From Miscanthus floridulus (Eukaryota > Streptophyta > Magnoliopsida > Poales > Poaceae): DNA of 64,000 bases. Below, piece by piece: positions 1,564-56,300 of the stretch. A program made the translations under genes and the position numbers. Under the pieces are notes generated by a model, which had not been told where the DNA came from, ran no database searches, and worked only from the letters and a program-made list of their open reading frames with translations. Within the stretch, counting starts at the first letter, position 1. Every line of letters begins with the position of its first letter. The DNA lies in NCBI RefSeq assembly GCF_019320115.1, contig NC_089584.1, forward strand, positions 108,765,799 to 108,829,798, in the 5' to 3' direction.

Positions 1564-4500
1564 TGTAACACCCCGGTGTTATGCCTACATTTAGGCACTG
1601 CAAATCATGCATAGCATGCATCATAAAGCATACTAATCATACATGCCTAATCATGTAAATAACAACTGAAACACTGTTTCGAAACATATGAAACATGCTC
1701 GTGAAACATGAATGTTGCATATACTTGTTTAGAGTTGTGTTTGCCCGAATTTCTTGCTAGATTAGTAAAACATGGTTGGCTACTATTGTAAATCATCTAG
1801 CAATGTTTAGTTCAATTTTTGGAGCAATGTTTGTATTCAAATTAATTCAAAATTTGACTTAAAAAAATAAATTCCCAAAATTAGGGTTTGGAGTTAAACA
1901 TGGACTTTGATTTTTCAATTCAAAATCTAGAAAGAATTTGGCTTTGGTCATAAAAGCAAAGTTGTAGAAAATTAAATTCTAATCAACTTTCATTTTTGGT
2001 ACATTTGCAAAAGATGTCATTTTCTTGCTCAAAATAATATTTGAAAGCTGGCATTTAAAAATTTCTTGAAAATATAAATGAAAAAGGGTTTTTCTCATTC
2101 GTGGGCCGCCGCCTCGCTTTCGGCCCAGCCGCACAGGCGGCCCGGCCTGCCTCCGCGCCACGCCTTTGCTCCCGCAGCGCTTCGCCCTGGCCCAGCAACC
2201 GCCTCATCGGCCCAGGCCCACGCCACGCCTCCCGCTCACCCGCACTCGCACGCCTGCGTCCTGACGCCGGCAGAAGCCGACCGCCGCGTGGCGCCACCCG
2301 TCGCTGGGCTCCTGACTACGCGGCCACGCGCCGCGGCCGTCCTGGCACTGCTGGCCATGACTTGAATCCCCACGCGCCCACCGCATTCCAGCGCTCCTCA
2401 CTTCTCCTCTCCCGCGCTGCCTCTCTGCCTCTCACCGCGCGCCCGCAATAGCCACCGCGCGCCGTGCCTCGCCGGAGCTCGCTCACCCAGCCGTCCTAGC
2501 TCGCCATTGAACCCTCCATCTCGCTCGCATCTCTGACTCATCATCGCGCACCTCGTGCTCGCCTCGGTAAGCCGTGAGAAGCTCCCTCTTCCTAGGAATC
2601 TCTCACCAGAGTTGTGGCCGAGCTCACCGGAGCGCTTCGCTCCGTGGACCTCGCCCTCCGTCCTTCTTCTAGCTACCTTTTCGCGCGCACGACCACCGCA
2701 CGAGCTCGGTGAAGCTCCCGCACCACCTTTCGCGCCCCTTCCCAGCCGGAGATGGCCGGCCGTCGGGAGCAGCGCCGCCGCTCCGCCATGCGCGCCGTCG
2801 AGCCCTATCCCGAGCTCCTCCTGTGCCTTCTCTTGGTGCACCGTGTTCGCCTCGTCGCGGGTGAGCTACTGGTGGTGACCACACCGCCGGCTGGCTCGCC
2901 GTCGGCGAGAGCTGGCCGGTTAGCGCCGCCCCTGTCTCGGTCTGACCGACAGGTGGGGGCCGTTGACCGTGGGGGCCCGCTCGTCAGCGCCCTGGAACGG
3001 ATCCGGGTGCACAGCACCGGGTGCACCTAGTATTTTGTCGTCTGACTTTTAAAAGGGATTTCAAAAATGATTTTTTCAGAATTCTATTTAAATGCTTTGG
3101 AAAATGTTTGTGTACTCCTTTTAGCTCCAAATCTGTTGGAACAAATTTTGCTAGGTTCCTTATCATCAGATCTACTTGGGAAAATTATTGCATGTCATTT
3201 TTGGGATACTTTTCCGTAGGATTTTATTTAATCACGTATGTTGCTGATAACTTGAAAAATGTGTAGAAAAATCTATAGGCTTCAGAAAAATATGATTTCA
3301 AGTTTGTTAATCTTCTTATGTCATTTACTTCCTAGGAAAAATATGTTTCATGCATGTGCTGTGGAAAACTTTGGAGGTGTAGTTCAAGTGCCTTTAATGG
3401 CTGATTTTTGTTATTTTTACTAGAGAGCAAACTTTGTATAAAACATGCATGTGATAATTTTTGGACAGTCATTATATGCTATGAAGAACCTAGGAAAAAT
3501 ATTAATTCTGTTGTTTGACACTTTTCATAGTACAAAGTAATTTCATGCTCATTTTTATGCTATAGCTTGTCATTTTTGTGTAGGATAGTTTACTTATCCA
3601 AATGCCATGAATTTTTTATGGTAGTCTGTTTAGGATAGTATTATGCTACTGTAATTTTCTCAGATTTTTAGGAGCATCAGAGATATATGTTGCTATTCAA
3701 ACCTATTATTAATTAGGGTTTAAGCAAGTGTTGCTTTATGTATAATTAAGAAATTAGTAAAGCTTTGGTGTATCTTTGAAGCATTTCATAAGATATGTTG
3801 ACTTAACATATTAGAAGTAGAAGAGAATGCAGTAGATGACATGTGCTTGTAGTATAGTTTCTTGAATGATGTTGACTACCTTGCATTTAAACATATCCAT
3901 TGCATTCATCTCCTTCGATGCACCGTTTGCATAATCACTTACGCGCATTGCATCATACAGGATCACAAACTGAGAACCCAGTCATCATACCCGAGGAGCC
4001 CGAGGAGCAGCTCGAGGTGCAGCCGCAGGAAGTGCTAGAAGCCGACGAGGAGGACGTTGAGGAACTCCCGGAGTGCCCCAATCACCGTCCGAGCTCCTTC
4101 GAGAGAGGCAAGCCCCAGAGCATTTTTCTCCCGGTTTGCGATTATTTAATTAAATGCTTTACTTTAATTGATGCATTACGTTCAGGAGTTGTTTGCAACC
4201 GTTGCTGCATTATACCTTGTCTACCTTTGTTATACTATATCCTTGTTACCCTGGTATCCGCAGTCAAGTTAATGCTTAGCTGGCTTAGACCGGTAGAAGT
4301 CAGGTGATTTCCTGTCACCTGCGAGCTATAGGTGGTTACCTAGATCTACTTGGATGACTATGAAGTCATGGTATAACTAAGTGTTAAATGAAGTTGAGAC
4401 CAGACGGAGACTTGCAGAGTTTTGGACTGTAGTGTTTCCGTCTGTGTCGATTAAGGACCGACCGTTGTTGGGCCTTGAGTCATGTTGAACGCATGCCTTA

Positions 4501-5579
4501 CATTTAGCTGGCCGGATAAAGTACCTTCCGACCGCGAAGCTGGGAGATTTTTTGGGCCGAGTAGATTGCCCGCAACGCACTGTGCCGAAGCAGGTGTGGT
4601 AGGACACGGGGGCGGGATGATAAGACCAAAGTGCAGTCGGTCGGCCCCCGGGTACATGTGGTTCCTGGCAAACTCGAGATACCTGGAAAGTTGACTCGGT
4701 GATCAATATCTCACTTTAGCGGGTGAGTGAGGTTTGTGTAAGGAATAAATCACCAGCTGGTTAGGAATCGATTCGAATCACCATCGCTCCTGGATAGTGA
4801 GCACTTGACTTGAGTTACTTCATCGTAGTAAATGTTTATGGAACACTTGGACAGTTTTAATGAATATGACAGTATGGAAGTTATTTAATGATCGTTGGTT
4901 ATCATGATTTGCTTAATCACATGTTCACTCTAGTATTGGTGCAAATCTGGTCGACAGGTTAATAATAATTAACTTGGCAAAAATGATTTTCTAAAGGTTC
5001 TCGGAATGCTAAAAATGCTTCTTTTTGCAAATGAGTCAGCTACCCTACTATAAAGCCCTTCATAATCCTTGGTGTCATTTATTTTTGGTTATGTCGGGTA
5101 AGTCTAACTAAGTACCTTCTCGTACTCAGGGTTTTATTCCCACTTGTTGCAGATGGGCAGATGTATTACGGCTACTGTATCAACTACCTTTATCCTGCGA
5201 TGGGTGATGCTTAGGACCATGGGCATGGTCATTCCTTACGTCTCATCTAATGCTTTTGTTGGAGATGATCATTCGCTGGCACTATATTTAAACTCCGCGT
5301 GAGTGTGTGTGGTTTGAACAAATGGCTTCTGCTACTTTTATTCGAACTGGTTTTGTAATAACTATGTTGAAACTCTGATGTATCTGAGGTCGCGAACTTT
5401 TATGTAATTTGTGATGGTGACCGCTAAACTTATTACGATCTTGGCTGGAATGGAAGTTGGTTTGAAATCCTTCGTGATTTCATGGACTACCGGGTTATAC
5501 GGGCTTAAGTTTGCTAAATCGTCTGCTCTGGCGGATGATTTTCTTACTTAATTTCGTATAATTGGTCGGTTCTGTTACA
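1564..5579 (+). repeat. 5' LTR of element A (4,016 bp)
   Basis: It starts TGTAACACC and ends TGTTACA, followed two bases later by a tRNA-Met-type primer site. The first bases form a 16-bp palindrome (TAACACC-CC-GGTGTTA). The LTR has AT-rich ends and a GC/CpG-rich island at about 2100-3030. Many long open frames in that island on both strands are composition artefacts, although they recur in the 3' LTR. It contains no supportable gene. Confidence 0.95.
5049..5054 (+). promoter_or_regulatory. Possible TATA box in LTR A
   Basis: TATAAA lies in the context CTACTATAAAGCC about 530 bases before the LTR end. That would leave a plausible R-U5 before the PBS at 5582. It is a single motif match; the equivalent part of the 3' LTR is deleted, so no second copy can be compared. 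Confidence 0.3.
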
Positions 5580-5581
5580 GC

Positions 5582-5593
5582 TGGTATCAGAGC
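5582..5593 (+). other. Primer binding site of element A
   Basis: TGGTATCAGAGC follows the LTR end after two bases. This is the usual plant initiator-tRNA-Met complement used by chromoviruses. It fixes the 5' LTR boundary at 5579 and the plus orientation of the element. Confidence 0.93.
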
Positions 5594-6369
5594 ATGGTTT
5601 AGTGTGTTACTGTTCATAAGTGTATTTAAAACAAAAAGGTATTTGGAAAACGTGATTTTAAAACTATAAAGTGTGCCAGTGATCATATCCGTTATGCCCA
5701 GTTAAGGACTTTAGGTGGCTTAATTAAGTACTGACTTGGGGTTCTTGCATCATATTTCTCTTTCGTCGCTCATACGGCGTGCTATTGTATGAGTGCCACT
5801 TGTTTGAGTGGTAATGTATGGATCATTTGCCTCTACGCCTCGGTAAGTGTGAGTTGTGAGAGCATGATCGGATACACCGCCGATCTAGGGTGAATGCTTA
5901 TATGATGCTGGAGTAATTATATGTTCTACGCATGTTTTACAAAGGTATCTCATGAATGGGTCTTCCGTCTGTGGAGGCGATGCCGTCAATAGGACGATGG
6001 TTCGGGTAGTTACTACCGTTGTACACGTATCTAGGGATTCGTGTAGAGCGTGTAGATAAAACTTTATTGCTTTTATGCATTCATTGGGAATTGGGCTAAA
6101 ATGAATCTTCTGTAGGTACATAACAATGCTATCGTGTAGAACGTATTAGTTACGTATTTGAGAGATCGTTGTATGCCACCGAATTCGTCGTTAGAAATTA
6201 TTTATTTCCTAAGTTTGTGAGAACGTACGACACGTACATACATCATGTTACTTGTGCATTTCATTCATGTCATGCATTCCTCCCCTTATAAATTGATTAT
6301 CTCATTTTGATAAAAGTTGTATCACCAAAAATATGTTTCCCCGAGGTAATAAAAGAACTTTTGCTACAG
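5594..6369 (+). other. Untranslated leader of element A
   Basis: About 780 bases lie between the PBS and the first element-encoded ATG that makes sense. I find no convincing coding signal on either strand. This would be the packaging/leader region of the genomic RNA. Confidence 0.6.
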
Positions 6370-7359
6370 ATGGCCCGCACGAAGCAGACCGCCCGTAAGT
6401 CCACCGGAGGAAGAGCACCTCGACGTCCATTGGCCCTGAGGGAGCACCGCACCACGGACACCTTCTTGAGCGAGTTTGGCATGCCGACCTTGCTTTGGAG
6501 AGTGCTCCATGATGTGGGGTACCCAGAGGGTCAAGAGCCGGTGTACTCATAGAATGAGAGCCAGTTAGCAGAGGATGGACTTGCAGTGGTGGAGATCACG
6601 GTTCCTGCTCTCGGTGATGCTCTAGATTGGGATGGTTGGCATTTGGAGTTTGAGGGTCGCACTCTAGCTAAGGGTGCAGAGGGAGCAGCCTTCCGTGTCA
6701 TCAGGGACATTATGAGCAGATTTCCCAATGAGCTTGTAGCAGCTCTAGCTGATACTTTTCCTAGGGATGATCCTTGTGATGCCGTTTGGGTTCAGCCTCA
6801 GGGAAGTGCATTGGTTAGAGGTCCAGCTGAAGGACAGGCTAGCGACAACCAGGCAATGAGTGCTATGTTCGCCGCCATCAGAGCGTATGAAGGTCTTGAG
6901 AGTACCTACTGGACTTTGACTGGCTTGTGTAGTGAGGATAAGCTAAAAGGGAAGAGGCAGAAGAAGAGACAGGCATGTGCTATAGCTAGCTTGCAGGAGC
7001 AGTTGGCTGATATGAACTTACAGAGAGATCAGGCGGTTGAGAGAGGTGATAGAGCTATGCAGCGAGTGCATACGTTGACTCGAGCCAACAACAATGCAGA
7101 CCGCATGATTGGACAGCTGATTCAGGAAAGGAATGAAGCCTAGAACGCAAGAAACCTTCTGCTGCAGAGGGTCGATGAGCTAGAGGAATATAATGGCTAC
7201 CTGCACGAGGAGTTTCACGCGCTCTACAATGGGGTTGGCCCATATGCTCCACCAGTCGCTGCTGGCATGGACGTTGACAACGACAATGAGGATGAGCCTG
7301 CAGTTTCACCTAGGGGCGATGGTGACGTCTCCGATCCCGACGATGGCCCCGAGGAGTAG
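6370..7359 (+). pseudogene. Extra ORF upstream of gag with histone H3-tail-like N-terminus (329 codons, two in-frame TAG)
   Basis: Seen: from the ATG the frame reads MARTKQTARKSTGGRAPRR, so after Met 18 of the first 21 residues equal the canonical histone H3 tail. R2, K4, R8, K9, S10 and T11 are kept, while K14, K18 and K23 are all Arg. There is no histone fold; the rest is unlike H3. Next come a unique segment (about 25-190), a basic stretch KLKGKRQKKRQ (191-201, nuclear-signal-like), a predicted coiled coil (about 205-290) and an acidic tail rich in D/E (300-329). The frame stays open from 6370 to TAG at 7357 except for TAG at 6550 and 7141; both are probably former CAG codons. The start was chosen because the H3 match begins exactly at this ATG; the frame is open upstream to 6307. 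It lies between leader and gag, so it would be expressed from the same LTR. Known: H3 K4 and K9 are methylation sites; K14, K18 and K23 are acetylation sites. Inferred: captured or mimicked histone tail; function unknown. Confidence 0.8.
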
Positions 7360-7720: not shown

Positions 7721-10700
7721 ATGCAGATGACAAACACTCGCCAAACCACATATGAGGCCGCTGAGCCCGGTGCTAATGGTGCGGGGACCGGTGGTGGTGG
7801 TGGTGGTGGAAACCATGGCAATGACAATGAACCTCCCCACGAACCACATTTGCCACCTCCTCCCCCGTTTACCCCCGAGATGTTCCTCGCACAGCTGCTC
7901 GGGAGTCAGCGCAACGCGGAACAATCCCAGAAGAACATGGAGAATCTTCTTCGAACCATCGCCAACAATGTTCAACGTGGTAACAATCAAGGTGGTGGCA
8001 TGGGAGTGAACCAATATAGCAGCTTCAAAGATTTCATGGACACCAGGCCGCCAGTATTCAAGGAAGCAACAGAGCCACTCGATGCTGAGGAATGGATCAA
8101 CACGATGGAAGATAAATTCCGTGTGTTGAGGATGACGGAGGTTCTAAAAACGGAGTATGTTGCACTTCAATTGCAAGGACCGGCGGGAATGTGGTGGAAG
8201 CACCATCACACCACCTTCCCTCCAAATGCTCAGATTTCTTGGAGAGAGTTTGCTGAGGCCTTCCGTGGAGCCTATATTCCACCAGGGCTGACCGAGATGA
8301 AGTTGGGAGAGTTTCTAGCGTTGAATCAGGGCACCAAGACCGTGACGCAATACCTACATGCCTTCAACAACTTGTGTCGCTATGCTCCCGACATGGTTGA
8401 CACAGATGCTAAAAGAATAGCTAGTTTTAAGAGGGGTCTCAATCCAAAAATGATGAAGCATGTTGGTACCAACAACCGTGTCAGATTCAATGACTTCATC
8501 AGCGACTGTCTGAAGTAGGAGAAGAATAACAACGCCAGCACCGCAGCCAAGACACGCAAGAGAGCCTTTGAAGGTGGTCCGTCTCAAACTAGAGCACCTA
8601 TGGGAGGTCGTCCTCCATATCGCCCATTGGCACCTGGCGCTAGATTCAGGCCACCTCAGCCAAGAAGTTAGAATTTCCGTGGACCTCAAAAGCCGTACAA
8701 GATGGCAGTACAGCCCAACAAAGCAGCCGCAACTGCGGTACAAGGCAGTTCCAAGGGAGCTGTGGGATCTGCCAGGACAGTAAGAGGACCCTGCTATAAC
8801 TGTGATCAGCCCGGTCATTTCTCGAGGTTTTGTCCATACCCGCCCAAGAAGAAGCAGCAGACTTATAATGCTAGAGTGCATAGTACGACAGTGGATGAAA
8901 TTCCAGAGGGAGAGCCCGTCACTGCTGGTAAGTTTCCTGTCAATGAAAACCCTGCAGTTGTTCTATTTGATTCTAGATCATCGCATTCTTTTATGAGTCA
9001 AGCATTTGCACAGAAACATGGACAACGATGCACAGAATTGGGTTATGGGTACCGTATAAGCTCAGCAGGGGCTGATGTTTTGACCAACCAGATGGTTCGA
9101 GGGGCAACCCTTGAATTAGGTAGCAGGAAGTTCTGAGTGAACTTGATAGTTATGCCTGGGTTAGTCTTGGATGTCATTATAGGGATGAATTGGATGAAGG
9201 ATTGGGGAGCAGTCATAGATACTAGAAGTCGAGTACTTACCCTTAAGGATCCCCTAGGTGAGGGTACTTTCCAAGTACCATTGCCTCAGAGAACAGATCT
9301 GATAAGTGTTACATGTGCTACGGCAGTCATTCCTATTCATCAGATTCTGGTAGTGTGTGAATTTCCGGATGTATTCCTGGATGAGCTACCTGGTCTTCCG
9401 CCAGATAGGGAGATTGAGTTTGGAATTGAGTTAGTCCCCGGAACGGCTCCGATTTCAAGGAGGCCCTATCGGATGCCTCTAGATGAGTTAGCTGAGCTGA
9501 AGAAGCAATTAGAAGATTTATCAAAAAAGGGGTTTATTCGGCCAAGCAAGTCTGAATGAGTATGTCCCGCTTTGTTTGTGAAAAAGAAGAAAGAGGGCAC
9601 ATTGAGAATGTGCGTAGATTATAGGCCACTCAATGCTGTGACCATCAAGAATAAATATCCCTTGCCACATATTGATGTTCTGTTTGACCAATTATCTAAG
9701 GCCAAGGTGTTCTCAAAAATAGATTTGAGATCCGGTTATCATCAGATCAAGATTAGGCCACAGGATATACCAAAAACTGCATTTTCCACCAGATACGGGT
9801 TGTATGAGTATCTTGTCATGTCTTTTGGCTTGACAAATGCTCCTGCATACTTTATGTTTTTTATGAATACAGTTTTCATGCCAGAATTGGATAAGTTTGT
9901 GGTGGTGTTCATCGATGACATTCTGGTGTACTCCGAGAACGAGAAAGATCATGAAGAGCATCTGAGAACTGTCTTGACAGACTTAGAGATCATCAATTGT
10001 ATGCTAAGTTTAGCAAATGCGAATTCTGGTTGAAGGAAGTTCCTTTCCTTGGTCACATTCTGTCAGAGAATGGAGTTTTAGTCGATCCAAGTAAGGTGCA
10101 AGAAGTTATGAATTGGAAAGCACCGACCACAGTTCCTGAGATTAGAAGTTTCTTAGGACTAGCTGGTTATTACCGTCGCTTTATACCAGATTTCTCGAAG
10201 ATCGCCAAACCGATGACAAGCCTCCTACAGAAGGATCACAAGTTTGTGTGGACAGAGGAGTGTGAAGCAGCTTTCCACACTTTGTGGAAACTATTGACCA
10301 CTGCTCCTGTTCTAGCACAACCAGATATCGAGAAACCATTTGATGTGTTTTGCGATGCATCGAAGACTGGATTGGGTTGTGTTCTTATGCAAGAAAGGAG
10401 AGTCATAGCTTATGCATCACGTCAATTGAGAAAGCACGAGGTCAACTATCCAACACATGATCTTGAACTTGCTGCAGTTGTGCACGCCCTAAAAATTTAG
10501 AGACATTATCTACTTGGTAATGTGTGCAATATTTTCACGGATCACAAGAGTCTTAAGTATATCTTTACCCAACCAGAGCTAAACATGAGATAGCACAGAT
10601 GGTTGGAATTAATAAAGGATTACAACTTGAATGTGCAATATCATCCTGGTAAAGCCAATGTAGTGGCAGATGCTTTGAGCAGAAAGTCACATTATTTAAA

Positions 10701-12255
10701 TGTGCAGCCATTACTTGAAGATGGGTTCGATCCAATGCATCCTACTGTGTTACATAGTATTCAGATTAGTTGCTCTTTGGAGAGTAAGATAATAGAAGGC
10801 CAGAAAACCAACAAGGGAATATTCCATATCAAAGAGAAAATAAAAGAAAAGCCGTCTCAACACTTTAAAGTGGATAAACAGGGCATGTTGTGGTTTGACA
10901 ACCGTCTTGTGGTTCCCAAGGATCGAGAGCTTAGGAATAAACTCATGGATGAAGCTCACTTTTCTAAGCTATCTATCCATCCTAGAAGTAGTAAGATGTA
11001 TCAAGAACTAAGATCTCGCTATTGGTGGACCAAAATGAAGAAAGAAATTATAGCATATGTTGTCAGATGTGACACATGTTGTCGAGTGAAAGCAATTCAC
11101 ATGAAACCTGCTGGTATGTTGCAACCCTTGTCCGTTCCTAGTTGGAAGTGGGACGATATAAGTATGGATTTTATCACGGGTTTGCCCACTACTCAAAAAG
11201 GACATGATTCGATTTGGGTAATTGTGGACCGTCTTACCAAGACCGCTCATTTCTTGCCTATCAAAATAGATTATCGACCACCTCAATATGCCGAGAAGTA
11301 TATCGCAGAAATTGTGAGGTTGCATGGTATACCAAAGACCATAGTATCTGATAGAGGCTCATAGTTCACGACCCACTTTTGGGAACATTTACACAAAGGC
11401 TTGGGAACTAGTTTGATTCGCAGTACCGCTTATCATCCTCAGACAGATGGTCAGACTGAACGAGTAAATGCTATTTTGGAGGATATGTTAAGAGCCTATG
11501 TATTATCTTCTAAGGGATCATGGGAGTCATGGTTACCATTAGCTGAGTTCTCTTATAATAATAGTTATCAAGAAAGCATCAAGATGGCCCCATTCGAAGC
11601 TTTATATGGCAGAAAATGTAGAACACCATTGAATTGGATCGAGCCTGGTGATAGAAGGTATTATGGCATTGACTTTGTAGAAGAAGCCGAGAAGAAAGTT
11701 CATATTATTCAGCAGAATATGAAAGCGGCCCAATCACGTCAGAAGAGCTATGCAGACAGAAGAAGGAGACCCCTTATGTTTGAAGTTGGTGACTATGTTT
11801 ATCTGAAAGTCACGCCAATGAAGAAGAAAAGGTTTGGAATCCGAAGAAAGCTTGCCACGAGATTCGTAGGACCATACAAGATCTTGGAACGAAGAGGTCC
11901 GGTAGCCTACAAGTTAGAGTTACCTGAAACAATGAGTACCGTTTTCCTAGTTTTCCATGTATCACATCTCAAGAAATGTTTGCGTGTTCCGAAGGAAAGA
12001 ATAGAACCTCGAGGTATTCAACTCAAATCAGATTTGGTGTATCGTGAACAGCCAGTCCGGGTGTTAGACACTAAGGAACATGCTACTCAGAATAGTGTGG
12101 TGAAAACATACAAGATACAGTGGGATCATCATGATGAGGGAGATGCAACTTGGGAAACAGGAGAGTATCTACAAAAAGCTTATGAAGAATTTTATAACAA
12201 ATGGTTCGTAACCCAAATCTTGGGACGAGATTTTTATAAGGGGGGAGGGCTGTAA
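7721..12255 (+). pseudogene. gag-pol: gag-pol polyprotein of element A (Tekay chromovirus), inactivated
   Basis: One reading frame carries Gag (capsid-type region about 8070-8430), a CCHC knuckle CYNCDQPGHFSRFC (8792-8833), aspartic protease (about 8945-9200), RT with FIDD (9908-9919), RNase H (about 10330-10600), the integrase zinc-binding region (about 10960-11110), the integrase core and a C-terminal chromodomain (about 12040-12190). The integrase triad is present as D 11167, D 11350, E 11458, with 35 residues between the last two. Breaks: stops at 8516, 8669, 9134, 9557, 10498, 10591 and 11362, and a one-base shift near 9980-9996. At least four stops are TAG in place of family Gln (CAG). 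The protease motif reads D-S-R (8969-8977) instead of D-S-G, via CTGG to CTAG. The stop TAA at 12253 lies in the first bases of the 3' LTR. ATG 7727 is an alternative start. Confidence 0.93.
12238..12250 (+). other. Polypurine tract of element A
   Basis: AAGGGGGGAGGGC directly precedes the 3' LTR start TGTAACACC. It is the plus-strand primer for reverse transcription and also encodes the last Gly-rich residues of pol. Confidence 0.9.
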
Positions 12256-15200
12256 CACCCCGGTGTTATGCCTACATTTAGGCACTGCAAATCATGCATA
12301 GCATGCATCATAAAGCATACTAATCATACATGCCTAATCATGTAAATAACAACTGAAACACTGTTTCGAAACATATGAAACATGCTCGTGAAACATGAAT
12401 GTTGCATATACTTGTTTAGAGTTGTGTTTGCCCGAACTTCTTGCTAGATTAGTAAAACATGGTTGGCTACTATTGTAAATCATCTAGCAATGTTTAGTTC
12501 AATTTTTGGAGCAATGTTTGTATTCAAATTAATTCAAAATTTGGCTTAAAAAAATAAATTCCCAAAATTAGGGTTTGGAGTTAAACATGGACTTTGATTT
12601 TTCAATTCAAAATCTAGAAAGAATTTGGCTTTGGTCATAAAAGCAAAGTTGTAGAAAATTAAATTCTAATCAACTTTCATTTTTGGTACATTTGCAAAAG
12701 ATGTCATTTTCTTGCTCAAAATAATATTTGAAAGCTGGCATTTAAAAATTTCTTGAAAATATAAATGAAAAAGGGTTTTTCTCATTCACGGGCCGCCGCC
12801 TCGCTTTCGGCCCAGCCGCACAGGCGGCCCGGCCTGCCTCCGCGCCGCGCCTTTGCTCCCGCAGCGCTTCGCCCTGTCCCAGCAGCCGCCTCGTCGGCCC
12901 AGGCCCACGCCGTGCCTCCCGCTCGCCCACACTCGCGCGCCTGCGTCCTGACGCCGGCAGAAGCCGACCGCCGTGTGGTGCCACCCGTCGCCGGGCTCCT
13001 AACCGCGTGGCCAAGCGCCACGGCCGTCCTGGCACTGCTGGCCATGACTTGAATCCCCACGCGCCCACCGCATTCCAGCGCTCCTCACTTCTCCTCTCCC
13101 GCGCTGCCTCTCTGCCTCTCACTGCGCGCCCACAATAGCCACCACGCGCCGTGCCTCGCCGGAGCTCGCTCGCCCAGCCGTCCTAGCTCGCCATTGAACC
13201 CTCCATCTCGCCCGCATCTCCGACTCATCATCGCGCACCACGTGCTTGCCTCGGTAAGCCGTGAGAAGCTCCCTCTTCCTGGGAATCTCTCGCCGGAGTT
13301 GTGGCCGAGCTCACCGGAGCGGTCCGCTCCGTGGACCTCGCCCTTCGTCCTTCTTCTAGCTACCTTTTCGCGCGCACGACCACCGCACGAGCTCGGTGAA
13401 GCTCCCGCACCACCTTTCGCGCCCCTTCTCGGCCGGAGATGGCCGGCCGTCGGGAGCAGCGCCGCCGCTCCGCCATGTGCGCCATCAAGCCCTATCCCGA
13501 GCTCCTCTTGTGCCTTCTCTTGGTGCACCGTGTTCGCCTCGTCGCGGGTGAGCTACTGGTGGTGACCACACCACCGGCTGGCTCGCCGTCGGCGAGAGCT
13601 GGCCGGTCAGCGCCGCCCCTGTCTCGGTCTGACCGACAGGTGGGGGCCGTTGACCATGGGGGCCCGCTCATCAGTGCCCTGGAACGGATCCCGGTGCACA
13701 GCACCGGGTGCACCCAGTATTTTGTCGTCTGACTTTTAAAAGGGATTTCAAAAATGATTTTTTCAGAATTCTATTTAAATGCTTTGGAAAATGTTTGTGT
13801 ACTCCTTTTAGCTCCAAATCTGTTGGAACAAATTTTGCTAGGTTCCTTATCATCAGATCTACTTGGGAAAATTATTGCATGTCATTTTTGGGATACTTTT
13901 CCGTAGGATTTTATTTAATCATGTATGTTGCTGATAACTTGAAAAATGTGTAGAAAAATCTATAGGCTTCAGAAAAATATGATTTCAAGTTTGTTAATCT
14001 TCTTATGTCATTTACTTCCTAGGAAAAATATGTTTCATGCATGTGCTGTGGAAAACTTTGGAGGTGTAGTTCAAGTGCCTTTAATGGCTGATTTTTGTTA
14101 TTTTTACTAGAGAGCAAACTTTGTATAAAACATGCATGTGATAATTTTTGGACAGTCATTATATGCTATGAAGAACCTAGGAAAAATATTAATTCTGTTG
14201 TTTGACACTTTTCATAGTACAAAGTAATTTCATGCTCATTTTTATGCTATAGCTTGTCATTTTTGTATAGGATAGTTTACTTATCCAAATGCCATGAAAT
14301 TTTTATGGTAGTCTGTTTAGGATAGTATTATGCTACTGTAATTTTCTCAGATTTTTAGGAGCATCATAAATATATGTTGCTATTCAAACCTATTATTAAT
14401 TAGGGTTTAAGCAAGTGTTGCTTTAAGTATAATTAAGAAATTGGTAAAGCTTTGGTGTATCTTTGAAGCATTTCATAAGATATGTTGACTTAACATATTA
14501 GAAGTAGAAGAGAATGCAGTAGATGACATGTGCTTGTAGTATAGTTTCTTGAATGATGTTGACTACCTTGCATTTAAACATATCCATTGCATTCATCTCC
14601 TTCGATGCACCATTTGCATAATCACTTACGTGCATTGCATCATACAGGATCGCAAACCGAGAACCCAGTCGTCATATCCGAGGAGCCCGAGAAGCAGCTC
14701 GAGGTGCAGCCGCAGGAAGTGCCAGAAGCCGACGAGGAGGATGTTGAGGAACTCCCGGAGTGCCCCGATCACCGTCCGAGCTCCTTCGAGAGAGGCAAGC
14801 CCCGGAGCATTTTTCTCCCGGTTTGTGATTATTTAATTAAATACTTTACTTTAATTGATGCATTACGTTCAGGAGTTGTTTGCAACCGTTGCTGCATTAT
14901 ACCTTGTCTACCTTTGTTATACTATATCCTTGTTACCCTGGTATCCGCAGTCAAGTCAATGCTTAGCTGGCTTAGACCGGTAGAAGTCAGGTGATTTCCT
15001 GTCACCTGCGAGCTATAGGTGGTTACCTAGATCTGCTTGGATGACTATGAAGTCATGGTATAACTAAGTGTTAAATGAAGTTGAGACCGGACGGAGACTT
15101 GCAGAGTTTTGGACTGTAGTGTTTCCGTCTGTGTCGATTAAGGACCGACCGTTGTTGGGCCTCGAGTCATGTTGAACGCATGCCTTACATTTAGCTGGCC

Positions 15201-15623
15201 AGATAAAGTACCTTTCGACCATGAAGCTGGGAGATTTTTTGGGCCGAGTAGATTGCCCGCAACGCACTGTGCCGAAGCAGGTGTGGTAGGACACAGGGGC
15301 GGGATGATAAGACCAAAGTGCAGTCGGTCGGCCCCTGGGTACATGTGGTTCCTGGAAAACTCGAGATACCTGGAAAGTTGACTCGGTGATCAATATCTCA
15401 CTTTAGCGGGTGAGTGAGGTTTGTGTAAGGAATAAATCACCAGCTGGTTAGGAATCGATTCGAATCACCATCGCTCCTGGATAGTGAGCACTTGACTTGA
15501 GTTACTTCATCGTAGTAAATGTTTATGGAACACTTGAACAGTTTTAATGAATATGACAGTATGGAAGTTATTTAATGATCGTTGGTTATCATTATCTGCT
15601 TAATCACATGTTCACTCTAGTAT
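12251..15623 (+). repeat. 3' LTR of element A, truncated (3,373 of 4,016 bp)
   Basis: It is collinear with 1564-4936 with no net indel at the points checked; the differences I see are mainly C/T or G/A transitions, concentrated in the CpG-rich island (about 12790-13720). After ...CACTCTAGTAT (15623) the sequence switches abruptly to reverse-complement LTR. The missing last 643 bp include the TGTTACA end and A's right target duplication. Confidence 0.93.
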
Positions 15624-17275
15624 AAGTACATTACATAAGAAGATTAACAATCTTGGAAATCATATTTTTCTGAAGCTTATAGGTTTTTCTACACATTTTT
15701 CAAGTTATCAGCAATATACATGATTAAATAAAGTTCTATAGAAAAGTATCCCAAAAATGACATGCAATAATTTTCCCAAGAAGATCTGGTGATAAGGAAC
15801 CTAGAAAAAATTATTTCAACAGATTTGGAGCAAATTTGAGTATCCAAACATTTTCCAAACCATTTCTCTTTTCAAATAATAAAGAAAAATTGAAAACAAA
15901 CACCCTATTGCTATTGGGCCGGCCCTCGGGAATCAGCCGGCCCACGGCCACACTTGGCCTGCGTGGCCCGTGCGACGAGAAAGGGAGGTGGCCTGGCCGG
16001 GCATCGGCCCATGGCCTCTCGGCCCAGCTCGGCCGAGGCGAAGGCCATGCCGGCGCCGTGACGTCGCGGTAGCGTGGCTCGGCCAACAAGGCCGGCGGCC
16101 ATTACCAGCCGTGCCAGAGCAAGTGAGCAAGCGCATGCAGTTCGCGAGAAGCTAGCGAATGCGAGCAGGTAGCCAGGTAGGGAGGAGAAAGGGAGGAAGA
16201 GTGCCTTCCACGGCGGCCGAGCACGGCGGCGCCATGGCCGACGGTGGCAAGGCGCGAGAAGGCGCTACCTAGGCTCAACAGTCGGCACAAGCGTGAGCAC
16301 CAAGTGCTAGAGAGAGAGGCGGAGCTGCTGGCGCTCAATTGCTGGCCGGGGTGGAGGAGAGGCGGCGAATTTGCCCGGTGGGCTGTGGTGGCTGCGGCGA
16401 GGGGGGAGAGAGCGAGCTCAGCGCGGGCGGAGAAGAGAGGCAGCGCGGGAGAGTGAAGGCGAGCGCAGCGGCTTCAGCAGAAGTAGGCGGGCACATGGGA
16501 GCGGGCGCAGGCCGGCTGCGATGCGCGGCGACATCGACGGCACAGGGCCGCCATGCGGCGGGCGTGCTCTGCCGCTGGTTGGGACGCGACGCGGCGCGTC
16601 AGTGAGCGGGCGAGCGTGGTGGCAGGCCAGGCGTGGCGTTGGGCTGGGCTAGGCCAAGGTGAGGTGCACGGCGCTAGCGTAGGAGGCTCGCTGCTGTAGG
16701 CCAGGCCGGCTTCGGCCGTGGGCCGGAAACGAGGCGGCGGCCCACGAAATGAGGGAAGCCTTTTTTGATTTATATTTTCAAGAAATTTTTAAATGCCAGC
16801 TTTCAAATATCATTTTGAGCAAGAAAATGACATCTTTTGAAAATGTACCAAAAATGAAAATTGATTAGAATGTAATTCTCTACAACTTTGCTTTTATGAC
16901 CAAAGCCAAATTCTTGATAGATTTTGAATTCTAAAATTAAAGTCAATTTTAACTCAAAACCCTAATTTTGGAGAATTATTTTTAAAAGCAAAATTTGGCA
17001 ATAATTCAAATACAAACCTTGCTCCAAAAATTGTGCTAAACAGTTCTAGATGATTTACCATGATAGCCAAACATGTTTTACTAGTCTAGCAAACATAATC
17101 AGGGCAAAATAACTCTTAAACAGGTGTATGCAACATTGATGTTTCACGAACATGTTTCATATGTTTCGAAGCAGTGTTTCAGTTGTTATTTACATGGTTA
17201 GGCATGTATGATTAGGATGCTTTATGATGCATGATTTGCAGGGCCTAAATGCTGGCATAACACCGGGGTGTTACA
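15624..17275 (-). mobile_element. 5' part of minus-strand Tekay-type LTR (T), right half of the split LTR
   Basis: It reads as the reverse complement of LTR coordinates 3330 down to 1564 of element A's family, but more diverged than A's two LTRs are from each other. It ends with TAACACCGGGGTGTTACA, so on the minus strand the LTR begins at 17275. With 1-1563 it makes up most of one LTR, interrupted by A. The GC-rich part (15920-16750) has open frames in all phases; none is credible as a gene. No polypurine tract lies at 17276-17301, so it is not certain that this LTR belongs to the pol relic next door. Confidence 0.85.
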
Positions 17276-35914: not shown

Positions 35915-38900
35915 ATGGCAGGAGGTGAATAGACTGGAGATAACAATCCTAAGGGTTTCAATGAATGTGTCAGTCAAGAGCATCTACAAGCTATTGTAGA
36001 GGATGCCCAAAAAAGGATGAATGAGGCCATTAGGAAGGCCGTCACTAACGCACTCATTGAACTCAACATTAGCAATAGCATGGAGAGATTGGACAAGCGA
36101 ATTTCCACGCTAACCGACAAGGTTACTGAGTTAGAAACCTTTGTGGCGAGCAACAACGACGTCTCCGACAGCAACACCGATGGTCAAGACATGGTGTATG
36201 ATGCCAACGAGAACATAGGTCGAGTAGCTTTCCAACAAAGGAGATCATGACAACGTCTTCGCTGCAACATGACAGGTATGGGTCGTGTCCACCACCACCG
36301 TCAAGGTAATAATCACCGTGTGCCCGATGATCCTTATGCTAAAATTAAGTTCACAATACCATCTTTTTCGGGTCATTATGATGCTGAGGGATATCTTGAT
36401 TGGGAGATGATGGTAGAACAAAAGTTTAGTGCCCACCTTGTACCTAAGCAGCATAGAGTTAGACAAGCTACTAGTGTGTTTAAGGATTTTGCCATTATTT
36501 GGTGGAATGGGCTAGCTGCACAGAATGCTTTACCTAGTACATGGGAAGAACTTAAGGTAGCTGTGCGTGATCGTTTTGTTCCTCCTTATCATAGAGACTT
36601 GTGTAAGAAATTGATGCATTTAGAACAAGGAGATAAATCTGTACAGGATTACTATGGTGAGCTCCAAAAGGGATTGATGCACTGTAGTGTTGTGGAGGGA
36701 AACAAAGATGCCATTTGTCATTTTTATTCGGGTTTGAGGCATGAGATTCAGGACATTGTTGATTATAAAGAATTTAACACTGTCAACCAGTTGTTTCAGT
36801 TTGCTATGCTTGCAGAAAAGGAATTGCAGGGGCATGAACAGCAGGGCAAGAGCAAGGTCAGCACCAGCACATACACACCACGCTCGGCACCATCTTTGGA
36901 GCTGACCAAGCCAACCACTTTTTGGGCGCCTCCAACAGCGAACAAGCGACCAGCAGCCTCTAGAGTTTCTGCTACACCTAAGGCGCCTCCCGCATGACTT
37001 TCAGATTTAGGTAAAAATTCTTTGCAGGTGCCTACCAAGAGTTCCTCATCCTTTGCATCGATGGGACGCACTTCGAGTATTCAGTGCCACCACTGCCATG
37101 GCATTGGCCATGTGTAGAAGAACTACCCAAGTCAGCAGGCATATATTGCTATAGAAGATGGTTACATTAGCACCTCTGACATTGAGAATGAAGAAGACCA
37201 AGATGCAGATGAGGATGACAGTGAAGTCCTTGGTGACGAGGCCACGGCATCCTATAGGAGCATCATTGTATAGCGGGTGCTCAGCTCACAAGTCTAGCAA
37301 CCTGAGAAGCTACAACGCCATAACTTGTTCCAGATTTCCTTCATCATCAGCGACCGTCGAGCACGTGTCATTATTGATGGAGGTAGCAGCAACAATTTGG
37401 TGAGTTCTGATTTGGTCAAGAAGCTTGGCTTGACCATGCACCCACACCCACATCCATACCATATTTAGTGGCTAAATGATTCTGGTAAAGCAAATGTAAC
37501 ACAAACTTACAGAGTTTTATTTTTCATTGATTCTTATGCTAATTCTGTTGATTGTGATGTGGTACCTATGCAAGCTTGTTCACTCTTATTGGGTCATCCT
37601 TGGGAACATGATAATGATGCTACACACCATGGTAGAAGTAATAAATACACTTTTGTGCATAAAGGAAAGAAAATTACTTTGGTACCTTTGACCCCTGCTC
37701 AAATTGTATAAGCTGATAGAGAACGCGATGCTAGTTTCAATGATGTTCAATCTGAAAATCAGCAAGTTGCTAATTCTATTTTCCCACCTAAAAAAGATAA
37801 GTCTACATGTATTTCTAAGGCTGAGAGGATTAAATTGAAGGGTGGTGTTATGCTTGCAACAAAATGTGACTTTGCTGAAATTTCTGATGATGATATTTGC
37901 TATGCTTTGGTATGCAAACGAGCTATATTTTCGCTTGATGATATTCTTAGTTTGGTACCTCCTGCTGTCACTAACCTTTTGCAGGAGTATGAGGACATTT
38001 TTCCAGCTGAGATACCCCCGGGGCTGCCACCTATAAGAGGAATAGAGCATCAAATTGATTTGATTCCGGGAGCAACCTTGCCCAACCATGCTGCCTATCG
38101 AACCAATCCCGAGGAGACTAAGGAAATTCAGCGGCAAGTCCAAGATCTTTTGGACTACGGGTATGTACGTGAAAGCCTTAGTCCTTGTGCCATTCCTATA
38201 CTTTTGGTTCCTAAGAAAGATGAAACTTGGCGTATGTGTGTTGATTGTAGAGCCATCAATAATATTACTATTCGGTATCTTCATCCTATTCCTAGGCTAG
38301 ACGACATGCTTGATGAGTTGTGTGGTTCTATAATTTTCACTAAGATTGACTTGCGAAGTGGCTACCACCAGATTAGAATAAAACTCGGAGATGAATGGAA
38401 AACTGCGTTTAAAACCAAATTCGGGTTGTATGAGTGGTTAGTTATGCCTTTTGGTTTAACAAATGCACCTAGCACTTTCATGCGCTTAATGAATGAGGTT
38501 TTAAGAGCTTTTATTGGTCATTTTGTGATAGTTTACTTTGATGATATATTGATTTATAGCAAGTCTTTTAATGAACATATGGATCACTTACGTGTTGTTT
38601 TTAATGCTTTACATGATGCACGTTTATTTGGTAGCCTTGAGAAGTGCATCTTTTGCATAGATCGAGTTTCTTTTCTTGGCTATGTTGTAACTCCATAGGG
38701 AATTGAGGTGGACGAGATGAAAATTGAAGCCATAAAGAGCTGGCCGGTTCCCCAAACCATCACACAGGTGAGGAGTTTTCTTGGTCTTGCAGGATTCTAC
38801 CGCCGCTTATCATAGATTTTAGCACCATTGCTGCCCCATTGCATGAGTTGACGAAGAAAGGAGTGGTGTTTCATTGGGGAAAGGCACAAGAGGAGTCCTT

Positions 38901-40913
38901 TGACACTTTGAAGGACAAGCTTACACACGCACCATTACTGCAACTTTCAAATTTTGGAAAGACTTTTGAGCTAGAATGTGATGCTAGTGGAGTTGGCATT
39001 GGTGGTGTTTTGATGCAAGATGGTAAACCAGTTGCTTACATTAGTGAAAATTGCATGGTCCTGTTCTTAATTATTCTATGTATGATAAAAAATTGTATGC
39101 ACTTGTTCATTCTTTAGAGACATGGCATCATTATTTATGGCCTAAAGAATTTGTTATTCATTCTGATCATGAATCGCTTAAGTATCTTCGCTCTCAAAAT
39201 AATCTGAATCATAGGCATGCTAAATGGGTTGAATTTATTGAATCTTTTCCTTATATTATCAAACACAAGAAAAGGAAGGATAATGCGATTGCTGATGCTT
39301 TGTCTAGAAGATATACATTATTGTCCCAACTTGATTGTCAGATTTTTGGTCTTCAATCCATTAAAGAACAATATGCGCTTGATCCTGATTTTAAGGATGT
39401 GTTGCTTAATTGTAGAGAGGGACGCACATGGAATAAGTTTATGATCAGTGATGGGTTTTTATTTAGAGCTAACCGCCTATGCATTTTAGTTGGTTCTGTT
39501 CGTCTTTTGTTGTTGTAGGAGGCATATGGAGGTGGATTGATGGGACATTTTGGTGCCAAGAAGACGGAGGAGGTGCTATCCACACACTTCTTTTGGCCAA
39601 GGATGAGGCGAGATGTAGAGCGATACATGGCTCGGTGTGCCACATGTCAAAAAGCTAAGTCACAGTTGAACCCACATGGTTTGTATATGCCTCTTCTTGT
39701 TCCTTCTACTCCTTGGGCAGATATATCTATGGATTTTGTGTTAGGATTGCCAAAGACTAAGAGGGGGAGGGATAGTATTTTTGTGGTGGTTGATCGTTTT
39801 TCTAAGATGGCATATTTTATTCCTTGTCATAAGAGCAATGATGTTGTTCATATTGCTGACCTTTTCTTTTAAGAAATCATTCGCTTGCATGGTATGCCTT
39901 CTACTATTGTTTTAGATCGTGATGCAAAATTCTTGAGTTATTTTTGGCGCACGTTGTGGAATAAATTGGGGACCAAGCTGCTGTTTTCTACAACATATCA
40001 TCCCCAAACTGATGGGCAAACTGAGGTTGTGAATCAAACGTTGTCCACCATGTTGAGAGCAATTTTGAAGTGCAATTTAAAGATGTGGGAAGAGTGTTTG
40101 CCACATGTGGAGTTTGCATATAATAGGGCGGAACATTCCACCACCAAGGTAAGTCCTTTTCAGGTAGTGTATGGTTTTAACCCCCATGCTCCTATTGATC
40201 TTTTGCCTTTACCTACCACTGAGAGAATACATAGTGATGCTAGAGAGCATGCTGATTTTATTCGTAAGTTGCACGAAACAACTAAAGCAAATATTGAAAG
40301 AATAAATAAAAAGTATAGAATTGCTGGTAGTAAAGGTAGAAAAGAGATTAAACTTGAACCGGGTGATTTAGTTCGGTTACATTTGAGAAAAGATAGATTT
40401 CCTGAGCTGCGTAAGTCTAAATTAATGCCAAGAGCAACTGGTCCTTATAAGATCATTGAGAAAATAAATGATAATGCCTACAAACTTGAATTGCCACCCA
40501 AGTTCGGGGTTAGTCCCACCTTTAACATTGCAGATTTGAAACCTTATTTGGGAGAAGAAGATGAGATTGAGTCGAGGATGACTCCAATTCAAGAGGGGGA
40601 GGATGATGAGGACATCACTTCTTTAGAGGTACCCGCTGATCCTCCAACCGTCATGCAAGGTCCAATGACCCGGGCTCGAAAGCGACAACTCAATTTAGAG
40701 GTGAGCTCGTTCTTAAGCTATACTTTTCATATTTTTGAGAATAGACTACTACCTAATGATGTTATCTTGCTTAGGAACATTGGAGAGGGTCATGAAGGAC
40801 TTAGAGGAAGTGGTGTAGGTGATGATGACCAGCAAGGACGGCCAACACAAGTCGGAGGCCCAGTCCAACATGAATTCCAGTCTGCCTCGGCCTCTAGGAC
40901 CAGTTTGCCTTAA
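35915..40913 (+). pseudogene. gag-pol: gag-pol of CRM element R, inactivated; C-terminus encoded in the 3' LTR
   Basis: Gag begins MAGGE-TAG-TGDNN at 35915; the capsid-like region is about 36330-36830; a degraded knuckle CHHCHGIGHV lies near 37085 (final Cys lost). Protease V-I-I-D-G-G-S-S-N-N is near 37370; RT Y-F-D-D at 38534-38545; RNase H near 38970-39300. The integrase zinc region is near 39540-39655, and the core triad D 39732, D 39915, E 40023 has 35 residues between the last two. The end (40604-40913) lies in the LTR and includes GPMTRARKRQLN, the conserved CRM C-terminal (CR-like) motif. Lesions: TAG at Gln positions (about 35930, 37117, 37275, 37295, 37468, 38696, 39517), other stops at 36248, 36995, 37709 and 39870, and one-base losses near 38808 and 39046. 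Confidence 0.92.
40591..40603 (+). other. Polypurine tract of R
   Basis: AAGAGGGGGAGGA directly precedes the 3' LTR start and at the same time encodes Glu/Gly/Asp residues of pol. Confidence 0.88.
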
Positions 40914-53371: not shown

Positions 53372-56300
53372 TATACGCACACTTTCCCTTATCAGTTTCG
53401 CTACCAACTCCCCGATCTTTAGTGACACCCAACACCAGCAATGGCAGGGGGTCGAGCCTCACTCAGGGGTTGATAAGAGCATATCTATTCGGTAGACATT
53501 CTCTATGACCGACCATTTCTCATGTTAAGACCTAGAAGCGAGGATTGCAAAAATAGGCACTGAGTAAAACTAGTTGGACTACAAGAAACCTACTCCCCAG
53601 CGGCCATGGTGTTTTTGCTCACCAGCATGATCCGAGTTTTTTTCACACCCTGAGCTTTTCTAGCCTTAACTATGGAAAGAGTTGGTACGTGTCTAAGAGT
53701 ATATCCACCTGGCCAACATCCTCTATGCCTGACCCTCTCTCACAATAAGATCTAGAAGCAAGGGTTGCAGAAACAAACGCTAAGTAAAACTGGTTGAATT
53801 GTAAGAAACCTACGCCCTAGAGGCTACAACGTTTTTGCTCATCAGCATGATCAAAGTTTTTTCTGCACCCTGAGCTTTTCTAGCCTTAATTGTGGAAAGA
53901 GTCGATACGCGTCTAACAATATATCCACCTGGCAAACATCCTCTATGCCTGACCCTCTCTCATGATAAGATCTAGAAGCAAGGGTTGTGCAAACAAATGC
54001 TGGGTAAAATTGGTCTGACTACAAGAAACCTATGCCCCAATGGCTATGGCATTTTTTGCTCCCCAGCATGATCAGAGTTTGTTCACCCGCACCCAAGGCT
54101 TTACAGCCTTAACAACGGAAGGGGTCGGAACACATTAACCTTTTTGTACAAAAAGGGGAGAACGTCTAAAAATCTATTTGGCTATAACAAAATTTAAGAG
54201 CTTGTCCATTTATTACAAGTTCGTCGCCTGGCTTATCTGCATAACTAATTTCTTGGGTGGGATGATCTCATCCTCTATCTCCACCGGTAAGTCCTATGCC
54301 AGTAGGTCACCATAGTCGATCGGATGGCTTGGGCCGCTACCAAGAGATGGGTCATCTCTAAGTGACACATGACCCTAGCAACGGTAACGGGTCAAGCCGC
54401 ACTCGGGGGCTGGCAAGACTGTCTATTCGGTAGACATTCTCTATGCCCGACCCCTTTCTCATGCTAAAACCTAGAGGTAAGGTGTGTGGAAACAAACACT
54501 GAGTAAAACTGGTTGAACCACAAGAAACCTATGCCCCAGTGGCTATGGCGTTTTTGCTCACTAGCGTGATCAGAGTTTTTGTCCCCACACCCTGAGCTTT
54601 AGACTCCGCCATCCCAGGAAGGGTTTAGAGGGGCCCACCAGTGGAATCTCTATTGAGGAGAGGCCAGCAGGTCACCTAAGTCGATCGGATAGCTCGGGAC
54701 ACTACCGAGAGACGGGTCATCTCTAAGTGACACCTGACCCTAGCAACGACAATGGGTCGAGGCTCACCTGGGGGATGGCAAAAGTATCTATTCGATAGAC
54801 ATTCTCTATGCCTGACCCCTTTCTCTTACTAAAAACCTAAAGGAAAGGTGTGAGGAAACAAACACTAAGTAAAACTGGTCGGACTACAAGAAACCTACAC
54901 CCCAGCGGCTACGGCATTTTTGCTCAGCAGCATTATCAGAGTTTGTTGCCCACACCTTGAGCTTTAGCCTTCACCTTCCTAGGAAGGGTTTGGAGGGGCC
55001 CACCCATGGACTCTCCATCGAGGAGAGGCCAGCAAGTCAACCAAGTCGATCAGACAGCTTAGGGCGTTGCCGAGAGATGGGTAGGGAGCAGCAGGATGCC
55101 CCATGTGGGTTAGGCAAACTCCATCATGAATGATGGACCCGGATTTCACTCAAACATATCTGGTAAGAGCTCCCCGAACCCGTCACTCGAGCCATCGAGG
55201 TAACTTTACCAACCCCCACTTTACTTTTCTAGTGCATGATCATCCATTCATCCATTCTCATGCATGCATTCATACATTCATCCCATACATCCAAGCATCA
55301 CATATGCAATTATTGCATCACAACTCTTCGTGTTGCATCACGAAGAGGTAGTCGTCTCATTCGATATGAGCGACAACTGACCGAGGTTCGAAGGCTAGCC
55401 CATGAAGGGCTCGAGGCCACCTTGCATCAAATAGAGCCAGGGGAGAAAACACAGATGAACCCCAGTGGCCTTTGCTCGACCCACTCAGAAGTAGAAAGGG
55501 TTATCTCGATCTTCTCGTTTGATCCTAATCTCTAGCCAAGCCCATAGAATCAACATCAAGGGGAGGCCAGTGGGCCACCTGAGTCGGTCTCTAGAATGAC
55601 TTAGGCATCTATCGAGAGGTGGGTTAAGGAGCGGTGGAATGCCACATGAGGGCTATGTTGACCCTGTCATGAACAATGGACCCATATTCCACTCGGACAT
55701 GCTCATTAGTGAGCTCGTCGAGCATGACACTTGAGCCATCGAGGCAAGTGCCATTAGCTCATCCCCTTTAGTTGTGGAAACCACGGGCAGGGTGACACAT
55801 AAAACATGGCCAACCCCTACCGAGCCCAATGGGGCTCGGGGGCTCGAGTCACCCAACCCCAACTCGAGAATCTGATCGACCGAGGTTCAAAGGCCGACCC
55901 ACGAAGGGATCAAGGCCACCTCATGTTAAACAGAGCTAGGGGAGAAAACACAGATGAGCCCCAGTGGTCGTTGCCCGACCCACTCAGAATCGGACAGGGT
56001 CATCTCGACCTTCTTGTTCGATCCTAACCTCGAGCCAAGCCCACAGAATCTCCGTCAAGGGGAGGCTAGTGGCCACTTGAGTCAGTCTTCGGAATGACTC
56101 GTGCATCTATCAAGAGGTAGGTTAAGGAGCAGTGGAATGCCACATGAGGGCTATGCTGACCTCGTCATGAACGATGAACCCGGATTCCACTCGGACATGC
56201 CCATTAGCGAGTTCACCAAGCGCTTCACTTGAGCCATTAAGGCAAGTGACGTTAGCTCAACCCCTCCGGTTGCGAAAACCACAGATGGGGTGACGATCAC

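Follow-up and report, generated by a model that had tools for sequence, protein, structure and literature searches.

Why should a long terminal repeat (LTR) retrotransposon begin one of its reading frames with the tail of a histone? The question is raised by a 64,000-nucleotide stretch of the Miscanthus floridulus genome (contig NC_089584.1, positions 108,765,799 to 108,829,798; hereafter the window), in which a Tekay-like Ty3/gypsy element carries an additional open reading frame (ORF), ORF0, upstream of gag. The frame begins MARTKQTARKSTGGRAPRRPLALREHRTTDTFLSEFGMPTLLW, and codons 2-22 after the ATG encode ARTKQTARKSTGGRAPRRPLA, identical to the N-terminal tail of histone H3 at 18 of 21 positions, as the initial annotation of the window had noticed. 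With the ORF's own composition, the probability that a given site matches at 18/21 or better is 1e-19, and histone H3 chains of the PDB are matched by ORF0 at E 4.5e-8. The annotation had placed no histone fold behind the tail, and indeed Pfam scans of two pieces of ORF0 and of 17 relatives detected no histone match. The frame, first taken as open, contains in-frame TAG codons at positions 61 and 258, and the window copy is therefore a pseudogene that could not make a protein. The H3 tail is the best-kept part of the family to which this copy belongs, which suggests that the element may imitate host chromatin to evade silencing. We give even chances to the reading that the captured, conserved H3 tail would serve as a nuclear, oligomeric decoy against silencing by way of H3 lysine 9 (H3K9) or small RNAs.

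A protein search with masked ORF0 returned 23 matches. Seventeen (P0001-P0017) belong to the family, whole or as fragments, and the other six are rodent proteins that contain histone domains and match ORF0 in the tail only. A search with the P0015 region gave 3 matches, 2 of them new, and a profile search gave 131, of which the best 120 were used (the best 7,998 candidates were scored). The combined set holds at least 121 family proteins besides the six rodent ones; scans of viral contig and prokaryote genome contig collections returned no relative. Residue 1 is not reached by 113 of the 121; many of these begin internally at Met38, a start which gene callers may favour. In all eight database proteins that include residue 1 (P0009, P0062, P0093, P0102, P0017, P0015, P0024 and P0117) the tail is present. 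Across these eight and the window copy, A1, K9, S10, G12, P16, R17 and L20 are kept in 9/9, R2, T6, A7, T11 and G13 in 8/9, K4, Q19 and A21 in 7/9, T3, Q5, R8 and A15 in 6/9, and K14 and K18 in 0/9. The match to H3 reaches 19/21 in P0062 and P0102, above the window copy, and is poorest in P0117 (12/21). P0017 resembles clade D, one of the clades (A to D) of the family, and has a later frameshift.

This pattern bears on a simpler explanation, in which the basic tail was retained only as an H3-type nuclear localisation signal (NLS). H3 tails are importin substrates, which favours it. Yet the strictest positions include the non-basic A1, S10, G12, P16 and L20 (each 9/9), K14 and K18 are lost, and the window frame has a separate basic patch at residues 191-200. 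Published 5' additional ORFs (aORFs) of grasses are predicted to be nuclear (PMC11728184, in the portion at hand); on balance we consider this explanation quite unlikely.

In the host genome (2.68 Gb), the 21-residue tail as query gave 3,925 first-look candidates, and the 150 that were scored are all 100% identical over 21 residues, the window among them. Frames of at least 329 codons were open at 46 of 149 of these places, 31 of them with 355 codons, so long frames without interruption do exist. When P0042 (clade D, from Met38) served as a tail-blind query, it gave 126 matches among 13,274 candidates, and in all 12 loci that were read first the H3 tail lies upstream, seven reading through it openly. 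The start Met is out of frame in L039, L047 has a frameshift, and stops lie within the tail in L043 and just behind it in L040 and L046. Among 63 aligned clade D copies, Met1 is kept in 60 of the 60 that cover it, the remaining 3 being gapped there, with A1 in 59/60, K4, K9 and G13 in 60/60, S10 in 58/60 and R8 in 50/60; position 14 is R in 54/61 and K in 5/61, position 18 is H in 61/61, and copy L048 also reaches 19/21. At least three diverged clades (A, B and D) have an ORF0 that opens, from its initiator Met onwards, with an in-frame H3 tail. The reading frame is kept through the tail in 8/8 proteins and Met1 is kept in 60/63 copies, with frameshifts or stops in or near it in some. The earlier statement that the element would make an H3-tail protein is supported for a retrotransposon-encoded family and fails for the window copy with its two stops. 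Clade D ORF0 also shows 22 stop changes common to four or more copies, which may reflect either recurrent C-to-T decay or the spread of broken copies.

Between clades, the tail is the most conserved segment of ORF0. The clade majorities of A and B share 16/21 tail positions, against 2/9 for the linker, 42/89 for the adjoining domain (a double-stranded RNA-binding domain (dsRBD)-like fold in models, see below), 36/130 for the coil and 10/21 for the acidic end (Fisher, tail vs dsRBD p 0.027, tail vs rest p 0.0009). Single pairs were also compared (12 pairs, 9 of which include the tail). The A-D pairs agree at 20/21, 20/21, 19/21 and 16/21 in the tail and at 45/87, 49/88, 41/80 and 51/88 in the dsRBD, so that the best of them set 20/21 against about 52%; the corresponding values are 15/21 and 14/21 vs 41/87 and 36/89 for A-B pairs, and 16/21, 16/21 and 13/21 vs 51/88, 49/88 and 41/88 for D-B pairs. 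By the Nei-Gojobori method, 9 A and 20 D copies differ in the tail at a proportion of 0.561 of synonymous (pS) and 0.095 of nonsynonymous sites (pN), a dN/dS of 0.098, against a pN of 0.321 in the dsRBD, where synonymous sites are saturated, and of 0.401 in the coil (Fisher on rounded means, tail vs dsRBD, 0.0015).

The host H3 genes, with which the tail was compared, are of two kinds, intronless or split. In nine split loci the H3 reading ends after codon 24, where AAG is followed by GT, and the ATG of L051, L052 and L059 directly follows a splice-acceptor-like TGCAG, the exon limits being inferred from sequence and not from transcripts. The H3 likeness of ORF0 fades at codons 22-24, and CTACAG directly precedes its ATG in the window and in 10/12 clade D loci. 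In the alignment with host H3 genes that the initial annotation had proposed, the tail codons resemble the first coding exon of the split genes. Among 33 host genes, L057/L058 comes closest for both clades: A agrees with it at 39/41 nt at the 5' end and at 52/66 in all, D at 55/66, and the A and D tails agree with each other at 52/66 nucleotides. The codon identity to host H3 is significantly above simulation with the codon use of the element, being reached in 474 and 317 of 20,000 runs, a test that is weak taken alone. At H3 position 14, both A and D have AGA where host codons are AAG or AAA; at position 18 they have CGT and CAT, respectively, where the host has AAG, or AGG in L034, L035 and L037. 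The codon changes shared by A and D argue for one capture, not several. In the best-supported account, the first coding exon of a split, intron-bearing H3 gene of the host was taken up a single time, by a common ancestor before clades A, B and D diverged; K14 and K18 were probably replaced and K9 was retained. Of the two origins considered at first, capture thus gains support, and convergence appears unlikely in view of the shared derived codons and the nucleotide similarity to host H3. GC content at third codon positions (GC3) was dropped as a sign of capture: codons 2-12 are GC3-rich (10/11), yet stretches at codons 21-35 are equally rich or richer.

The domain after the tail had been called unique. 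In AlphaFold models of the relatives P0009 and P0015, residues ~32-120 take an alpha-beta-beta-beta-alpha dsRBD-like fold, with a long helix and then a disordered acidic end behind it. The nearest folds (Foldseek, VIA-align) are DRB7.2/DRB4, TRBP (TARBP2) and DCL4; a BFVD fold search gave no match under E 0.001, and a PDB profile search with the family gave 8 weak matches, mainly to helical or ribosomal proteins. In dsRBDs, KKxAK at the start of the last helix is the motif that contacts dsRNA; it was not found at that place in the family alignment, where the sequence is GRTPVEGAEGAA. Compared with plant DRB/DCL dsRBDs (DRB7.2M, DRB4, DCL4 dsRBD2) and TARBP2, to which identity is 13-18% in the leading VIA-align rows, ORF0 also differs in that its single domain is combined with a coiled coil and with the tail of H3. 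The product might be a suppressor that binds dsRNA or partners Dicer; the work would be done by the dsRBD-like domain, and the tail would only place the protein on heterochromatin-reading complexes. The matches to DCL4, DRB7.2:DRB4 and TARBP2 speak for this, as does the DRBM-like fold predicted for the aORFs of maize Tekay and sorghum Sb7 (PMC11728184, same portion). It is somewhat unlikely in our judgement, since KKxAK is absent and the constraint on the tail exceeds that on the domain.

SUVH4-6 write H3K9 methylation, which is read by CMT3, CMT2 and SHH1 (the latter needs unmethylated K4) and drives non-CG methylation and Pol IV small interfering RNAs (siRNAs) (PMC7617993, in the part available). 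From the capture and the constraint, both supported, we infer a function as follows. The ORF0 product, once translated, would oligomerise via its coiled coil and enter the nucleus, where the oligomer would display several methylatable, acetylation-poor H3 tails (K9 retained, K14 and K18 lost), with Ala1 free after removal of Met. The tails could titrate proteins that write or read the K9 region, such as SUVH4-6, CMT3/CMT2 or SHH1 (as a reader of K4me0/K9me), and the dsRBD-like domain may bind DCL/DRB proteins or dsRNA and could disturb Dicer complexes. Together, the two ends would weaken the silencing that H3K9 and siRNAs direct against the element. In its fullest form, this would make the captured exon a conserved, methylatable, acetylation-poor H3K9 decoy, displayed many times over through the coiled coil, fused to a Dicer/DRB-type dsRBD and aimed at both silencing arms (H3K9me with non-CG methylation, and siRNA production), a version that we put forward tentatively, at rather less than even chances.

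Several observations weigh against the decoy reading. As to the tail, the N-termini surveyed are those of clades A, B and D; P0016 has an unrelated stretch at its N-terminus; clade B has lost T3 and Q5, and K4 in 2/3; and in clade D, G12 is kept in 44/60 copies (R in 10, E in 6) and R17 in 37/60, the changes at G12, R17 and R8 being such as CpG decay would predict. The loss of K18 is not unique to ORF0, since three host H3-like genes (L034, L035, L037) have R18. As to constraint, the weakest A-D pair keeps 16/21, 8/9 clade A copies of the Nei-Gojobori set had been selected by their tail, and synonymous divergence between A and D is lowest in the tail too. The purifying selection that the initial annotation looked for on the tail is found between A and D (dN/dS about 0.10) and not within clade D, where single-copy changes (12 nonsynonymous, 9 synonymous) and shared ones (8 and 5) do not differ (p=1). 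Shared nonsynonymous changes within clade D are fewer in the coil (p 0.0099) and the acidic end (p 0.023); recurrent CpG decay makes "shared" changes unreliable in this test. Codon identity to host H3 was reached in 7,325 and 6,585 of 20,000 simulations with GC3-rich codon use, which is not significant. As to the fold, model confidence is moderate (mean predicted local distance difference test scores 52.5 and 64.8, with 56-74 by block in the domain), Foldseek gave no E below 0.001, and a Pfam scan of the 17 relatives at E<=5 listed no dsRBD model.

The neutral-looking test within clade D and the codon test with GC3-rich use would also suit a start rich in R, K, S and T that resembles H3 by accident, or a captured fragment drifting without function. 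Such a chance likeness or passenger is very improbable, given a chance of 1e-19 per site, tails that agree at up to 20/21 between clades despite a 56% difference at synonymous sites, and the recovery of the tail by a query that was blind to it.

As a class, ORF0 is not new, and the annotation's view that it belongs to no named family was wrong in this respect. Extra ORFs upstream of gag are known as ORF0 of Retrosat2, RIRE3, RIRE8 and maize and sorghum homologs (PMC3485330), and as 5' aORFs in maize Tekay and sorghum Sb7, for which a DRBM-like structure and a long C-terminal helix are predicted (PMC11728184); the parts of these two papers at hand describe the function of the grass Tekay extra ORFs as unknown. 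Compared by description, not by alignment, the window element shares with these elements (RIRE3, RIRE8, Retrosat2, FRetro3, maize Tekay, sorghum Sb7/Sorsat2) the place of ORF0 between leader and gag on the same strand, LTRs of more than 3 kb, an integrase with a type II chromodomain (a weak match here) and, in models of its relatives, the fold and helix of the maize and sorghum aORFs. Its LTR starts with TGTAACACCC, which agrees at 9/10 letters with the published grass Tekay TGTCACACCC (PMC3485330, same part). It differs in the H3 tail, which those descriptions do not mention: the word "histone" is absent from the main texts of PMC3485330, PMC11728184, a 2020 review (PMC7264820) and a captured-gene survey (PMC3726574), and no report of an H3 tail on such ORFs was found in searches of the open-access literature, although closed papers or supplements could hold one. 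The conserved H3 tail, its K9 pattern and the evidence for exon capture therefore appear new.

Two further systems may be compared. With the first coding exon of intron-bearing H3 genes, ORF0 shares residues 1-21 (19/21 in the best relatives) and the limit near codon 24, and it differs in lacking the histone fold and in the replacement of K14 and K18. Influenza NS1 is a histone-mimic protein whose mimic is a short C-terminal motif. Both are proteins of parasites that pair a domain of dsRNA-binding type with an H3-like tail, to blunt host defence in NS1 and, as proposed, in ORF0; ORF0, in contrast, has the full N-terminal tail and lies in a retrotransposon. The likeness is one of working and not of kinship.

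The window element is, by its sequence, a Ty3/gypsy chromovirus with 4-kb LTRs and ORF0 upstream of gag on the same strand (Table 1), and the initial placing of ORF0 between leader and gag agrees with the gag, protease, reverse transcriptase, integrase and weak chromodomain matches downstream. The primer binding site is presumably of the initiator Met tRNA type. The 5' LTR and 12251-15623 are 97.5% identical across 3,373 bp, from which the insertion would be fairly young, though dead.

Table 1. Features of the ORF0-bearing element in the window
Feature	Position	Strand	Remarks
5' LTR	1564-5579	+	4,016 bp, TGTAACACCC...TGTTACA; ends read from sequence
Primer binding site TGGTATCAGAGC	5582-5593	+	read from sequence
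ORF0 / 5' aORF	6370-7359	+	329 codons, interrupted by TAG at 6550-6552 and 7141-7143
H3-tail mimic	6370-6435	+	Met and H3 residues 1-21, 18/21 identical
dsRBD-like domain	6463-6729	+	residues 32-120; by homology with AlphaFold models of P0009 and P0015, Foldseek, VIA-align
Long helix / coiled coil	6850-7224	+	approximate limits, homology with P0015 155-296
Basic patch KLKGKRQKKR, NLS-like (putative)	6940-6969	+	residues 191-200, from translation
Acidic C-terminus	7270-7356	+	from translation
gag (Retrotrans_gag)	7727-8518	+	ATG after CAG; ORF list begins at 7721
Zinc knuckle and protease part	8702-9136	+	Pfam scan
Reverse transcriptase part	9608-10033	+	Pfam scan
Integrase pieces, chromodomain without Y24/Y48 (type II) at end	10735-12255	+	
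3' LTR, first 3,373 bp	12251-15623	+	15623 is the end of the match to the 5' LTR

The integrase bears on a last alternative, a chromatin tether, in which the tail would recruit an H3-binding host factor or the element's chromodomain and lead the pre-integration complex or Gag to chosen chromatin, silencing not being the target. It is encouraged by the weak chromodomain match in the same element (Pfam Chromo, E 0.0017, under the curated cut-off) and by sunflower, where the distribution of insertions is reported to differ between Tekay groups that have a 5' aORF and those that lack one (PMC11728184, same portion). Of the aromatic cage, judged by eye, W is retained and Y24 and Y48 are not seen, as in type II, so that it is doubtful whether the element itself could read K9me directly; its own chromodomain is accordingly disfavoured as the reader of the tail. 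The ORF0 frame is, moreover, separate from those of Gag and Pol, and we regard the tether as unlikely.

A splice-acceptor-like CAG stands directly before both ORF0 (ctacag before the ATG, 6364-6369) and gag (tgcag before the ATG, 7722-7726), and a donor-like GTAAGT lies in the leader (5843-5848), so alternative splicing could select which of the two ORFs comes first. The CAG before gag was not confirmed in clade D, with one unconvincing match in 7 loci inspected, and a GT..AG stretch of 25-30 nt just 5' of the ORF0 ATG was dismissed as an intron, being too short. Each LTR contains a 129-codon ORF (3918-4307 and 14605-14994). Inverted partial LTR copies flank the element at 1-1563 (with part of the leader) and 15624-17275, and another family copy, in opposite orientation, appears to adjoin the left end of the window. 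Farther on, a second gypsy-type element at 36269-40913 has gag-, reverse transcriptase- and integrase-like ORFs, judged from translations alone, and a block at 53394-56766 consists of tandem repeats that have diverged, their periods being 220 and 365 bp.

In the fullest form of the decoy reading, ORF0 would, to our knowledge, be the first transposon-encoded histone mimic. If the decoy reading is true, histone mimicry would extend from viruses and host enzymes to transposons, and the pairing of a dsRBD-like protein with an H3 tail that is conserved offers a concrete, testable answer to the role of the extra ORFs of grass Tekay elements. An effect on H3K9me2 and small RNAs would then be predicted in grasses with many copies of these elements.
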